A stretch of DNA of 64,000 nucleotides from Streptomyces sp. NBC_00708. Its GTDB lineage: Bacteria; Actinomycetota; Actinomycetes; Streptomycetales; Streptomycetaceae. The DNA is taken from positions 806,001-870,000 of the forward strand of contig CP108997.1 of NCBI GenBank assembly GCA_036226585.1, in the 5' to 3' direction. Below are positions 2,107 through 6,165 of the stretch, in pieces. Every line of letters begins with the position of its first letter. Position 1 is the first letter of the stretch. A model generated the notes under the pieces. The model made no database searches. It worked only from the letters and a program-made list of their open reading frames with translations, and was not told the origin of the DNA. The position numbers and the translations under genes were made by a program.

Positions 2107-2391
2107 TCAGTCGCCCCGGCCGTGGTGCCCGCGGTGCTCGGCCGCGATGCCGAAGCGCTGCCGTTCGCCCGGAGCGGACGCCCCGGAGCCGATCGAGGAG
2201 ACCGAGCTGATCACGTGCTCCTGCTCCGCCGCCTCCTCCTTCTCGAGTCGTTCGAGGTCAGCGGCCGATACGAGGGCGACGAGCGGTTTTCCGTGCCGTG
2301 TGACGACCACGCGCTCGCCGCCGTAGACGACGCGGTTGATCAGTTCGGCGAGTTCAGCTCGGGCTTGCGTCACCGGAATCTCGTAGGCCAT
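2107..2391 (-). CDS. Type II antitoxin, Phd/YefM family (orphan)
   Basis: 94 residues. The N-terminal [20 protein letters not shown], then [19 protein letters not shown], is the Phd/YefM DNA-binding fold. This family neutralises a YoeB/RelE- or Doc-type toxin and represses its own operon. No toxin gene lies on either side: the flanks are a terminator and a ClpP-like gene. The C-terminal ~35 residues, which would wrap the toxin, are low in complexity (Ser/Gly/Glu-rich). ATG 2391 is preceded at 6 nt by a TATGAT -10 hexamer, and a TGTAC palindrome lies just upstream, as in known yefM operators. It is probably a solitary antitoxin or regulator. Confidence 0.85.
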
Positions 2392-2397
2392 GCTCCC

Positions 2398-2424
2398 ATC
2401 ATAGCCTTCTGTACGTCCTGTACA
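2398..2424 (-). promoter_or_regulatory. yefM-type promoter and TGTAC operator
   Basis: On the minus strand a TATGAT -10 hexamer (2398-2403) lies 6 nt before the antitoxin ATG. Upstream at 2410-2424 is TGTAC-GTCCT-GTACA, a perfect 5-bp inverted repeat containing a TGTACA hexamer, the core bound by E. coli YefM. Its place in the promoter spacer fits autorepression. Confidence 0.7.
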
Positions 2425-2487
2425 TTTTTTACGGAAGCGTGTGCGGGTGCTCCGCTGCGCCCGCGTCACCGGAGGAGAGGCACAGCC

Positions 2488-3120
2488 GTGTACCGTCCCG
2501 CCGCCCGTCACGTCCTGCCCGAGTTCACCGAGCGCACCTCCCGGGGGACCCGCACCCTCGACCCGTACTCCAAGCTGCTGGCCGGGCGGGTCGTCTTCCT
2601 CGGCACGGACCTCGACGACCCCGCCGCCAACGATCTGGTCGCGCAGCTGATGTATCTGGAGCACGACGCGCCGGACCGGCCCGTCTCGCTGTACATCAAC
2701 TCGCCGGGCGGCTCGTACGGGGCGATGACGACCCTCTACGACACGATGGCCTTCCTCAGCTGCGAGGTGGAGACCTACTGCCTCGGCCGGGCGGGGGCCG
2801 GCGCGGCGGTCCTGCTCGCCGCGGGCGCTCCGGGCCGACGGCACATGCTGCCGGGCGCCAAGGTGGTCGTGAGCCAGCCCGCGCTCGACGAGCCCCGGCG
2901 GGGGCAGCCGTCCGACCTGGAGATCGAGGCGCGCGAACTGGCCCGGATGCGCGAGACGATGACCGGCATGCTGGCCCGGCACACCGGCCGCTCCGCCGGG
3001 CAGGTATCCGAGGACACCGAACGCGACCTCGTCCTCGACGCGGAGGGCGCGCTGGCGTACGGGATCGTCGACCACATCGTGCGGGGCCGTGTCCCGGTGC
3101 CGCCGCGCTCCGAGCGGTGA
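2488..3120 (+). CDS. ClpP-like protein lacking catalytic Ser and His (pseudoprotease)
   Basis: 210 residues with the ClpP fold: [20 protein letters not shown], then [16 protein letters not shown], then [15 protein letters not shown], then [20 protein letters not shown]. Aligned to active ClpP (GQAASAAAVLL and IHQPA), the nucleophile Ser position is Ala104 and the His position is Ser129. The 25-residue spacing between them matches the canonical Ser-His spacing. The Asp region (near 180) is kept. Proteolysis is therefore not expected; a structural or dominant role in mixed ClpP rings is possible. GTG 2488 has a strong GGAGGAGAGG site at 2471-2480. A small gene follows 7 bases downstream and may be its partner. 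Confidence 0.85.
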
Positions 3121-3127
3121 ACCGGGG

Positions 3128-3436
3128 ATGCAGCCACCGGAGTTCTCGCCGCTGCCCGCCCTGACCGGGGCCGAGTGCGAGTTCATCGACCGCTATCTGC
3201 ATGTCCTCGACGAGCTGGGCCGGATCAACCCGGCCCGCGGTGACGACATGTACACCGCCCTGCGCGCCGCCCAGGCGCTCGCCTCGCACGCGGCGGCCCT
3301 GCGGGACGCGCTCGCGCTGATGCACCGGCGCGGCGAAACACGCATCCACAGCACCACGTTGACCCGGGCGCTGCGGACGCTGGACGGGGAGCGGCGGGCG
3401 GCCCGGGTCACCCTGCCGCCCGCTCCGCCGAGTTGA
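3128..3436 (+). CDS. Small all-helical protein of unknown function
   Basis: 102 residues. I do not recognise the family. It begins MQPPEFSPLPALTGAECEFI, and the middle (residues ~40-90) is predicted helical and amphipathic, with Ala/Arg-rich stretches such as MYTALRAAQALASHAAALRD. It has no signal peptide or membrane helix. It starts 7 bases after the stop of the ClpP-like gene on the same strand and is very probably cotranscribed, which makes a role as adaptor or regulator of that protein a fair but unproven guess. The start is taken as the first in-frame ATG after a CCGGGG stretch. Confidence 0.6.
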   Translation: MQPPEFSPLPALTGAECEFIDRYLHVLDELGRINPARGDDMYTALRAAQALASHAAALRDALALMHRRGETRIHSTTLTRALRTLDGERRAARVTLPPAPPS

Positions 3437-3923: not shown

Positions 3924-3941
3924 GCTGACGAAGGGTTGCGC

Positions 3942-4415
3942 ATGAGTGCGCAGGTTCAGGTCCCGTCTCTGCTCGCCCGAGCCACCACGGCCTCGGTCAT
4001 GACTCTCGCCGCCGTCGGCGGCACGTTGTTCGTCCCCGGTGCCGCGTCCGAGGCGCAGGCGGCGGGCCATGCGATGAAGGCTCTGAAGATCGCAGCGTCG
4101 AAGAAGGGGGCGCCCTATCGCTGGGGTGCCACCGGGCCCAGCAGTTTCGACTGTTCGGGCCTGACGCTCTACTCGTTCAAGAAGGCCGGCAAGAAACTCC
4201 CCCGGACGGCCCAGCAGCAGTACAACAGGACCAGGCACATCTCGGCGTCCAAGCGGCAACGAGGTGACCTGGTCTTCTTCCATGCCGGGCGCAGCGTCTA
4301 CCACGTGGGCATCTACGCCGGCAGTGGGAAGATCTGGCACTCGCCGAAAACCGGTGCCGTGGTCCGCCTGGAGAAGATCTGGACCAGGAGCGTCTACTAC
4401 GGCCGGGTCGGCTGA
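3942..4415 (+). CDS. Secreted NlpC/P60 peptidoglycan endopeptidase
   Basis: 157 residues. An N-terminal signal peptide (hydrophobic core ~14-30, likely cleavage after AQA at ~40) is followed by a minimal NlpC/P60 domain. Visible catalytic elements are the Cys in SSFDCSGL, the first His in YHVGIYAG and the last His in IWHSP. It should hydrolyse D-gamma-Glu-meso-Dap or similar stem-peptide bonds outside the membrane. It is small: no LysM, SH3 or coiled coil. Expression is probably set by the c-di-AMP riboswitch just upstream, tying wall turnover to c-di-AMP. ATG 3942 is chosen because GAAGGG lies 6 nt before it. Confidence 0.92.
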   Translation: MSAQVQVPSLLARATTASVMTLAAVGGTLFVPGAASEAQAAGHAMKALKIAASKKGAPYRWGATGPSSFDCSGLTLYSFKKAGKKLPRTAQQQYNRTRHISASKRQRGDLVFFHAGRSVYHVGIYAGSGKIWHSPKTGAVVRLEKIWTRSVYYGRVG

Positions 4416-4444: not shown

Positions 4445-4876
4445 TCAGGGCTGGACGGGGACCTGCCACGGGAGCTCCACCCAGACGGTCTTGCCCCCGT
4501 CGGCGGTGGGTGTGACGGTCAGCCGGCCGCCGTACTCCTTGGCCAGCGAGCGGATGATGACCATGCCGCGCCCGTTGTCCTGCTGGACGGCGGCGGGCAG
4601 CCGCTGGGGCCGGCGGGGGTGGCTGTCCGTCACGCCGAGGAGCAGCCGCTCCTCCCGCTCCAGCCGCAGGTCGATGGTGAAGGTGGGTGACTGGCCGAAG
4701 GTGTGCAGAACGGCGTTGGTGGCCAGCTCCGAGATGATCAGCCGCAGGGAGTCGGCGGCCTCCGCGTCGTCGGGCATGCCCCACTCGGCCAGTACCCGGG
4801 CCACGTATCTCCGGGCAGCGGAGACCGAGACCGGCTCGCTCGGCAGAGTGACACGTGCTTCTTGATGGTCTGCCAT
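4445..4876 (-). CDS. RsbW-like ATP-binding protein (HATPase, triad member)
   Basis: 143 residues. The GHKL ATPase fold shows an N-box SELATNAVLHTF (~50-60), a G1-like GVTDSHPRRP and a G2 region DNGRGMVIIRSLAKEYGG (~100-117). It resembles anti-sigma-factor kinases such as RsbW and the small ATPases that accompany XRE-DUF5753 and DUF397 genes in streptomycetes. It may phosphorylate or sequester a partner; no anti-anti-sigma gene is adjacent. It is divergent from the XRE gene across ~205 bases, so the two probably share control. The start is ATG 4876, with an AAGGGA ribosome site about 6 nt upstream. Confidence 0.85.
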   Translation of the reverse strand: MADHQEARVTLPSEPVSVSAARRYVARVLAEWGMPDDAEAADSLRLIISELATNAVLHTFGQSPTFTIDLRLEREERLLLGVTDSHPRRPQRLPAAVQQDNGRGMVIIRSLAKEYGGRLTVTPTADGGKTVWVELPWQVPVQP

Positions 4877-5081
4877 GGCGAGCCGTCCCTTTCCCACCCA
4901 GTACCGGCCCGGCAAGCCGTCCGGTCGCGCTTCGCGCCAGATTGCCACCGATGCTGCCCCCCGCGGGGGCGATCGGCCAAGATATGCATATATCTGTCGC
5001 TCAAACCGGTGAACTCTTCCCGCAAGGCCTCCCACGGGAGCCACACTGTCCCCTCGTCAGGCAGCGGGAGGGAGCCATCAG

Positions 5082-5942
5082 ATGCAGCACGGTCCTGCGG
5101 TGCGCCGCCGCAAGCTCGGGGAGGAGCTGCGGAGTCTGCGTCACGCGTCGGGTCTCACGAGCCGGGAGGCCGCGGGACTGCTCGGCTGGCACCAGTCGAA
5201 GGTGAGCAGAATCGAGACAGGTGTCAGCGGGGTGCGGCCGGATGACGTGATCCGGCTGCTGGACGCGTACGGCATGGACGATCCGAAGCTGCGCGAGGTC
5301 CTGGGCGCGCTCGCCGGATCGGCGGGCGGGGGCGGCGCCGGCTGGTGGCACGCGTACCGCGGTCTCATCCCGCCGCAGTACCGCGACTTCATCAGCCTGG
5401 AGTCACAGGCGCGCACCGCCCGCACGCTGGAGACCTCCGTGGTGCCGGGCCTGTTGCAGACGGCCGACTACGCCCGCGCGGTGACCCGGGCCGCCCTCGA
5501 CGGGCTGCCGTCCGGTCAGCTGGACTCCCTGGTGGAGGTACGGCTGACCCGGCAGGGCGTGCTGCGGAACGACCCGCCGCTACGCCTGAGCGCGGTGCTC
5601 GACGAGGCGGTCCTGCGCCGGGAGGTGGGTGGCCGAAGAGTGATGCGGGAACAGCTGCGCCATCTCGCACGGGTGGCCCAACTTCCACACGTGCAACTCC
5701 AGTTGCTTCCGTTCTCGGTCGGCGGGTATGTGAGCCTCACCAGCCCTTTCGTCATCTTCTCCTTTCCGACCGCTTCTGATCTTGACGTGGTCGTACTTGA
5801 CCACTTGACGAGTAGCCTCTATCTGGAACGGAAAGAAGACCTTGCGGCGTACAGCTCGGCCTTCCGAACCCTTCAGACGCACGCGCTGTCGCCGGAGCAC
5901 ACGCTGGACCTGATCGCCGCGATCGACCGCGACGATCGGTGA
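5082..5942 (+). CDS. XRE-family regulator with DUF5753 domain
   Basis: 286 residues. The helix-turn-helix at ~8-60 contains LRSLRHASGLTSREAAGLLG and HQSKVSRIETG. The rest is the DUF5753 domain (RTARTLETSVVPGLLQTADY, then VQLQLLPFSVGGY, then YLERKEDL), the ligand- or partner-sensing half of the WhiJ-like regulators common in Streptomyces. It pairs with the DUF397 gene 25 bases downstream, a small protein that in studied cases antagonises the DNA-binding partner. ATG 5082 follows GGGAGGGAG with about 8 nt spacing. Such regulators affect development or antibiotic production; which one is controlled here is not visible. Confidence 0.92.
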   Translation: MQHGPAVRRRKLGEELRSLRHASGLTSREAAGLLGWHQSKVSRIETGVSGVRPDDVIRLLDAYGMDDPKLREVLGALAGSAGGGGAGWWHAYRGLIPPQYRDFISLESQARTARTLETSVVPGLLQTADYARAVTRAALDGLPSGQLDSLVEVRLTRQGVLRNDPPLRLSAVLDEAVLRREVGGRRVMREQLRHLARVAQLPHVQLQLLPFSVGGYVSLTSPFVIFSFPTASDLDVVVLDHLTSSLYLERKEDLAAYSSAFRTLQTHALSPEHTLDLIAAIDRDDR

Positions 5943-5967
5943 CCCCCCACCGCCCGGAGGAAGCGTC

Positions 5968-6165
5968 ATGCCCGATCGCCTCGCTCAGCACGTCTTACGG
6001 TGGCGGCGCAGCAGCCGCAGCACAGGGATGAACAACTGCGTGGAGACCGCGCCGTCCGAGAGCGGACGGCTGCTGGCCGTGCGCGACTCCAAGGATGTGG
6101 CCAGGACACCCCTGGAGTTCTCCGCCCCGGCCTGGACGTCCTTCGTCTCCGGCCTGAAACGCTGA
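5968..6165 (+). CDS. DUF397 protein (triad partner)
   Basis: 65 residues. [20 protein letters not shown] followed by LLAVRDSKD and [14 protein letters not shown] is the canonical DUF397 pattern (W+SS-S-NCVE ... V-DSK ... W-F). The family is almost confined to streptomycete-type actinobacteria and works with the upstream XRE-DUF5753 protein. GGAGG at 5956-5960 precedes the ATG. It ends 13 bases before the converging bioF stop, with no terminator between. Confidence 0.92.

Follow-up and report, generated by a model that had tools for sequence, protein, structure and literature searches.

A predicted inactive ClpP5 paralogue, a small helical partner gene and an orphan Phd/YefM-type gene in a conserved Streptomyces locus

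Streptomycetes are counted as having three or five ClpP, the fifth being ClpP5, which in S. lividans is a monocistronic gene (PMC9765437; published sources are cited here in excerpt throughout). In S. hawaiiensis and S. lividans the catalysis comes from ClpP1 while the ATPases dock via ClpP2; ClpP2 carrying S131A retains full activity together with ClpP1, and the catalytic Ser of Streptomyces ClpP2 is dispensable both in vitro and in cells (PMC9765437). Among cyanobacteria, plastids and apicoplasts the paralogue ClpR represents a ClpP class without the triad and builds mixed Clp cores, and plastids also have small accessory proteins, ClpT, on the ClpP ring (PMC7966870). The literature on Streptomyces ClpP5 mostly mentions the gene in passing; six S. 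cattleya ClpP, with a numbering of their own, were tested on RelB2, and the lone 'ClpP3' made in E. coli together with ClpX shortened the RelB2 half-life ('ClpP4' and 'ClpP5' lie at adjacent locus tags, 'ClpP3' by itself; PMC4989188). In the openly accessible parts of the Streptomyces ClpP5 literature we found no account of triad loss, of a small adjoining gene or of an antitoxin-like neighbour, and among papers on inactive ClpP paralogues, on ClpP pseudoproteases and on Phd with ClpP in Streptomyces no title or abstract opening dealt with these features; their absence from print is thereby not established.

Here we describe a clpP5 locus in a window of 64,000 nucleotides, i.e. the whole stretch of Streptomyces sp. 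NBC_00708 DNA that was analysed, and compare it with its relatives. The features are (window positions):

2107..2391, minus strand: orphan Phd/YefM-type antitoxin-like gene, 94 aa, divergent from clpP5 (PF02604, TIGR01552)
2410..2434, no strand: operator-like motif TGTACGTCCTGTACATTTTTTACGG between the divergent genes, with three TGTACA-like hexamers 9 bp apart
2488..3120, plus strand: clpP5, ClpP2-derived ClpP paralogue, 210 aa, triad Ala104-Ser129-Asp180, inactive by sequence
2797..2799, plus strand: codon GCC, Ala104, at the catalytic Ser position (alignment with 5dzk)
2872..2874, plus strand: codon AGC, Ser129, at the catalytic His position (alignment with 5dzk)
3025-3027, plus strand: codon GAC, Asp180, the retained triad Asp
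3128..3436, plus strand: small helical partner gene, 102 aa (P0002), 7 bp past the clpP5 stop, no known family found

The clpP5 reading frame starts with GTG and is preceded by the ribosome-binding-like GGAGGAGAG at 2471-2479. Its product matches the S14 peptidase family PF00574 over residues 19-199 with 189.3 bits (Pfam) and aligns with M. tuberculosis ClpP2 (5dzk) at an E-value of 7.5e-63, in agreement with the well-kept ClpP fold proposed in the initial annotation. That annotation had also placed Ala104 and Ser129 at the Ser and His positions, and in the 5dzk alignment they do fall in the columns that we take to be the catalytic Ser and His, with Asp180 retained. The same Ala/Ser pair is present in the seven nearest database relatives other than the window protein (P0123-P0129, 7/7), and the nearest genome of our Streptomyces sample (G116) has the triad ASD; because these relatives show the same residues, the substitutions are no sequencing slip. 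Judged from these residues, the window ClpP5 would be a member of the ClpP fold family without an active peptidase, i.e. a pseudo-enzyme and not a misread, as had been suggested; the counter-example named beforehand, a sequenced active homologue with the same residues, did not appear. The window genome has three ClpP genes, clpP5 and an adjacent clpP1/clpP2 pair elsewhere.

The window protein is most likely the ClpP5 of Streptomyces, a ClpP2-derived paralogue. In a ClpP tree of 135 rows (a quick tree without bootstrap and with no ClpR row), the 115 ClpP5 rows including the window protein form one clade next to ClpP2 (SH-aLRT 99), separate from ClpP1, P2 and P3/P4, and by this tree ClpP5 descends from the ClpP2 line. 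The name ClpP5 rests on P0239, a close relative of the window protein with the database name 'subunit 5', together with the literature, S. lividans being outside the examined loci. Left out of the ClpP5 tree and the triad counts were L147 (its frame enters unreadable sequence), L156 and L157 (too short) and L159 (broken), while L150, a ClpP2, and the ClpP2-like L151, L152 and L160 were counted apart from ClpP5. The triad is complete in 6/6 ClpP2 rows. L151, L152 and L160 are extra copies with intact triads that adjoin distant relatives of the small gene, with an antitoxin-like gene approximately 1.1 kb away, and look like a parallel version of the clpP5 locus.

A full ClpP5 was found in 115 of the 150 Streptomyces genomes sampled; among the remaining 35 in this tally, one holds a ClpP5-type gene whose sequence is partly N. 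Ser-His-Asp is intact in 43 of the 115 ClpP5 and at least one triad residue is lost in 72 (His is missing in 62, Ser in 26 and Asp in 17; in 30 copies more than one residue is gone), with Ser replaced by A, G, P or T and His by Q, R, S, E, D, K or G. The description of this protein as a catalytically dead type of ClpP consequently stands for the window copy, which is inactive as far as its residues tell, but not for the type, since 43/115 orthologues keep the whole triad and deadness is not fixed. On a ClpP5 tree computed with the three triad columns excluded (again a quick tree without bootstrap) the triad state changed at least 13 times, and the well-supported (starred) branches force at least five changes; per residue the changes on the whole tree vs the starred branches were 8 vs 4 (His), 15 vs 9 (Ser) and 10 vs 6 (Asp). 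Among the best 120 database relatives, window protein included, His is absent in all and Ser in 46, and in a named set ordered by similarity to the small gene part of the triad is lost in 53 of the 75 readable ClpP. Beyond Streptomyces, 20 of the 44 genomes from other genera of the family with a small-gene match were examined, and nine have losses (five of these at all three positions) and 11 an intact triad.

A candidate link between dead ClpP5 and absence of ClpP3P4 was rejected. Dead copies were present in 49/60 genomes without ClpP3P4 vs 22/53 with it (Fisher, 1.4e-5; presence was set by the number of ClpP matches, three or five, with 2/115 rows having four skipped and two genomes set by hand). 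Independent pairs on the tree gave no support (five pairs, median p 1), and we draw no conclusion because shared ancestry explains the association equally well. As a separate observation, in pairs of the clpP3/clpP4 type one member (the partner gene; L180, L181 and L182 in three genomes) reads Ser-Gly-Asp, with Gly in place of the catalytic His, and because all three reference sequences share this Gly, a second Streptomyces ClpP may be inactive.

The small gene downstream (P0002) encodes, as initially annotated, a 102-residue protein predicted to be helical, with no known role that database matches would provide: there was no match in Pfam, NCBIfam, PHROGs or PADLOC, the best PDB sequence match was a designed miniprotein (E 0.066), and the helical model is modest (pLDDT 72, best Foldseek match E 1.2). 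Comparison with known Clp adaptors (ClpS, MecA and others) gave no family match, the model being weak. The family has 1266 database relatives, of which 120 were listed. The small gene is present in 123/150 Streptomyces genomes, i.e. in all 115 with a full ClpP5 and in eight more; 27/150 were counted as having neither gene, one of which holds a ClpP5-type gene with a downstream region that reads N. The clp gene and the small gene share a strand in 119 loci (115 ClpP5, three ClpP2-like and one broken); in 77 of these they are separated by exactly 7 bp and in 108 by 3-8 bp, and the two-gene unit put forward in the initial annotation is thus conserved. Of the eight genomes without a full ClpP5, four have an intact small gene (G087, G107, G132 and G145) and three a degraded or partial one (G061, G106 and G148), while in G016 it adjoins a ClpP2-like copy.

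In wider samples a small-gene match was obtained in 74/150 genomes and 9/17 genera of a family sample, and in 38/394 genomes and 5/137 genera of a class sample (12 candidates per genome scored). Across the 34 small-gene stretches examined from this wider search a full-length ClpP adjoins in 26 and not in eight. The outcome named beforehand as contrary, a small gene never beside this ClpP type, did not appear. Three of these eight, from one other actinobacterial family (L296, L297 and L298), retain the small gene intact, with no clp match inside 3 kb; in one, its neighbours on either side are a LysR-like and an acetyltransferase-like frame (named by eye). Because the small protein can stand without ClpP5 (in these three genomes and the four above), its proposed role as an adaptor of this ClpP is unproven.

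A third conserved element lies beyond the span of the initial annotation, namely the orphan Phd/YefM-type gene with a shared operator-like motif. The antitoxin-like protein scores 53.6 bits against PF02604 (cut-off 29.8) and 61.3 bits against TIGR01552, and a gene of this type is divergent from clp in 110/120 loci and was not found in the examined flank in the other ten. TGTACA occurs in 89 of the 92 intergenic regions of 20-260 bp among the 110 divergent loci (200 shuffles: mean 1.0, largest 5), and the common pattern TGTACRTCCTGTACATTTTTTACAG has, by eye, three hexamer-like units at 9 bp spacing. TGTACA is equally common at dead (58/60) and intact (29/30) ClpP5 loci, and is also present in 12 of the 13 readable loci among L296-L315, in 60/60 named loci and in 9/9 further loci. 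The core TGTACRTCCTGTAC has one exact occurrence in the 7.65 Mb genome, at the clpP5 promoter; allowing one mismatch adds 11 places, compared with four for a reversed-pattern control. A scan for promoters and terminators gave no promoter-like site and one terminator-like site (0.5 expected).

No toxin gene was recognised beside the antitoxin-like gene in the window, where the next gene (1047-2039) is convergent and matches an ABC-2 membrane family. Short same-strand ORFs follow the antitoxin gene in 39 of 102 readable loci of relatives, and the 12 listed resemble chance frames by eye. We rejected a toxin-antitoxin reading of the locus: there is no recognised toxin, and some small-gene loci have no antitoxin-like gene. 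Downstream of the two-gene unit the window has an NlpC/P60 cell-wall hydrolase gene (3936-4415), and at 4445-6165 domain matches indicate a HATPase_c_2 anti-sigma-like gene, a helix-turn-helix/DUF5753 regulator and a DUF397 gene, a set that we presume to be a common Streptomyces regulator cluster.

Triads are lost while gene order and motif are conserved, and triad loss with kept neighbours suggests that ClpP5 has a useful job independent of cutting. Our tentative reading, to which we give a probability of roughly 0.4, is that the locus is a regulated pseudo-protease unit in which ClpP5 would enter mixed Clp rings with ClpP1 doing the cutting and the small protein as partner. Specifically, ClpP5 would be an alternative docking or structural subunit that joins rings with ClpP1 and/or ClpP2 and alters which ATPase or substrate the Clp machine serves; its active site would be free to erode because ClpP1 cuts and the role of ClpP5 is docking or structure. 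A ClpP2-derived subunit can plausibly lose its triad and keep a docking role, since Ser-replaced ClpP2 stays active with ClpP1, and this docking reading is favoured because the ClpP2 Ser is dispensable and the docking-pocket Tyr69 (window numbering) is present in 115/115 ClpP5. The 7-bp spacing suggests that the small protein is probably made from the same message as ClpP5; its most likely part would be in assembly, in capping or in delivery, and it may serve other ClpP rings as well. The Phd/YefM-type protein, which we infer regulates clpP5, would most likely bind the shared TGTACA motif and repress the two genes for as long as it escapes degradation, in analogy to the PopR circuit controlling clpP3clpP4.

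Several observations stand against the docking reading: the faster evolution of dead copies (below), the 35/150 genomes without a full ClpP5, the four genomes in which the small gene outlives ClpP5, a motif spacing of 9 bp where E. coli yefM has 12 bp, and pocket positions that are looser in dead copies (S67 in 50/72 dead vs 38/43 intact, an aromatic at position 89 in 57/72 vs 42/43). In addition, S. cattleya ClpP3 may be an orthologue of the window clpP5, because the numbering there differs and the ClpP3 gene stands alone; if so, some ClpP5 members cut, which would also count against docking.

The main rival is slow decay, in which clpP5 is a dispensable back-up, triad loss the first step, and the conserved neighbours keep the locus visible; we regard this as somewhat unlikely. 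The varied replacements of Ser and His favour it, because such variety is expected without selection for a given residue, and dead ClpP5 do evolve faster than intact ones (root-to-tip distance 0.81 vs 0.46). The clp frames moreover look broken at three loci (L156, L157 and L159), and L154 has no clp match next to an intact small gene and antitoxin-like gene. These three remnants, however, face 115 full reading frames, and retention in the dead copies of the 107 sites conserved in intact ClpP5 has a median of 97% (mean 91%), with N71, P73, G74, G75 and G100 each retained in 72/72 and Arg179, which we take to act in ring-ring contact, in 71/72; losses are most frequent in the His column, partly by construction as 'dead' is defined by the triad. 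For assembly into double heptameric rings the evidence consists of this conservation of sites. By a simple counting method dN/dS is below 1 in 31/31 dead ClpP5 pairs (maximum 0.70), with medians of 0.33 for these, 0.25 for 17 intact and 0.42 for nine mixed pairs. Several sister pairs share an identical dead triad, and the TGTACA motif is as well kept in dead as in intact loci, both of which argue against decay. We read this as relaxed but real constraint on dead ClpP5, apparently strongest outside the active site.

The well-kept sequence outside a dead active site would likewise suit a brake, i.e. ClpP5 as a poison subunit of ClpP1P2 rings that lowers or reprograms degradation once the repressor is removed, with the small protein stabilising this inactive ring, and there is a precedent in S. 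hawaiiensis, where the extra ClpP-ADEP disrupts ADEP-activated ClpP1 complexes (PMC12607617). Intact triads in 43/115 orthologues are odd for a dedicated brake, which disfavours this explanation, and ClpP1P2 activity does not fall when the ClpP2 side is dead (PMC9765437); we consider the brake quite improbable. Highly doubtful in our view is the idea that the function of the locus lies mainly in the small protein, with clpP5 a frequent companion of minor or conditional role. It would account for a median dN/dS of the small gene below that of ClpP5 (0.17 in dead, 0.21 in intact and 0.19 in mixed pairs), for the four genomes where the small gene is intact with clpP5 apparently broken or gone, and for the three genomes of another family without a nearby clp match. 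Against it, no genome with a full ClpP5 lacks the small gene (115/115), the small gene too is degraded in three ClpP5-less genomes (G061, G106 and G148), and three further copies adjoin ClpP2-like genes with an antitoxin-like gene.

The Streptomyces genomes present natural 'experiments' in which the active site is lost repeatedly and the subunit, partner gene and operator-like motif stay, which makes roles of extra ClpP paralogues beyond cutting testable; the small-protein family is a candidate Clp partner and the orphan antitoxin a likely regulator. Compared with known systems, the locus agrees with the described Streptomyces ClpP5 in having an extra ClpP outside clpP1P2 and clpP3P4 (P0239 being named 'subunit 5'), but S. 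lividans ClpP5 is described, in passing, as monocistronic (PMC9765437), whereas here the two-gene arrangement is conserved, the regulator-like gene is divergent and the triad is often lost. ClpP2, the closest paralogue in the tree, docks ATPases with a dispensable Ser (PMC9765437) and, unlike ClpP5, has an intact triad in every row. The Phd/YefM-type gene shares with Phd/YefM antitoxins the PF02604 domain and TGTACA hexamers in the promoter region, a feature also of E. coli yefM-yoeB and axe-txe (PMC7730913, PMC4803016), but it has no recognised toxin, is divergent from a clp operon, and its hexamers do not have the 12-bp centre-to-centre spacing of Phd/YefM modules, at which E. coli YefM binds TGTACA repeats (PMC7730913). 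ClpR is likewise a triad-less ClpP paralogue, but one listed as a triad-less class (PMC7966870), while in ClpP5 the loss has recurred inside a single genus and many orthologues still have a complete triad; ClpP5, which groups with Streptomyces ClpP2 in a tree with no ClpR row, likely has a separate origin. To ClpT, as small proteins on the ClpP ring (PMC7966870), the small partner would be a functional analogue only, with no sequence relation claimed. A wider parallel, which we think unlikely on balance, is that Streptomycetaceae have a counterpart of the plastid ClpP/ClpR/ClpT system, evolved inside the family, in which a recurrently inactivated ClpP and a dedicated, so far undescribed helical partner would form a conditional Clp core under an antitoxin-type switch; if true, this switch would be a toxin-less antitoxin-type repressor, itself a Clp substrate, and the protease state of the cell would set its own subunit composition.
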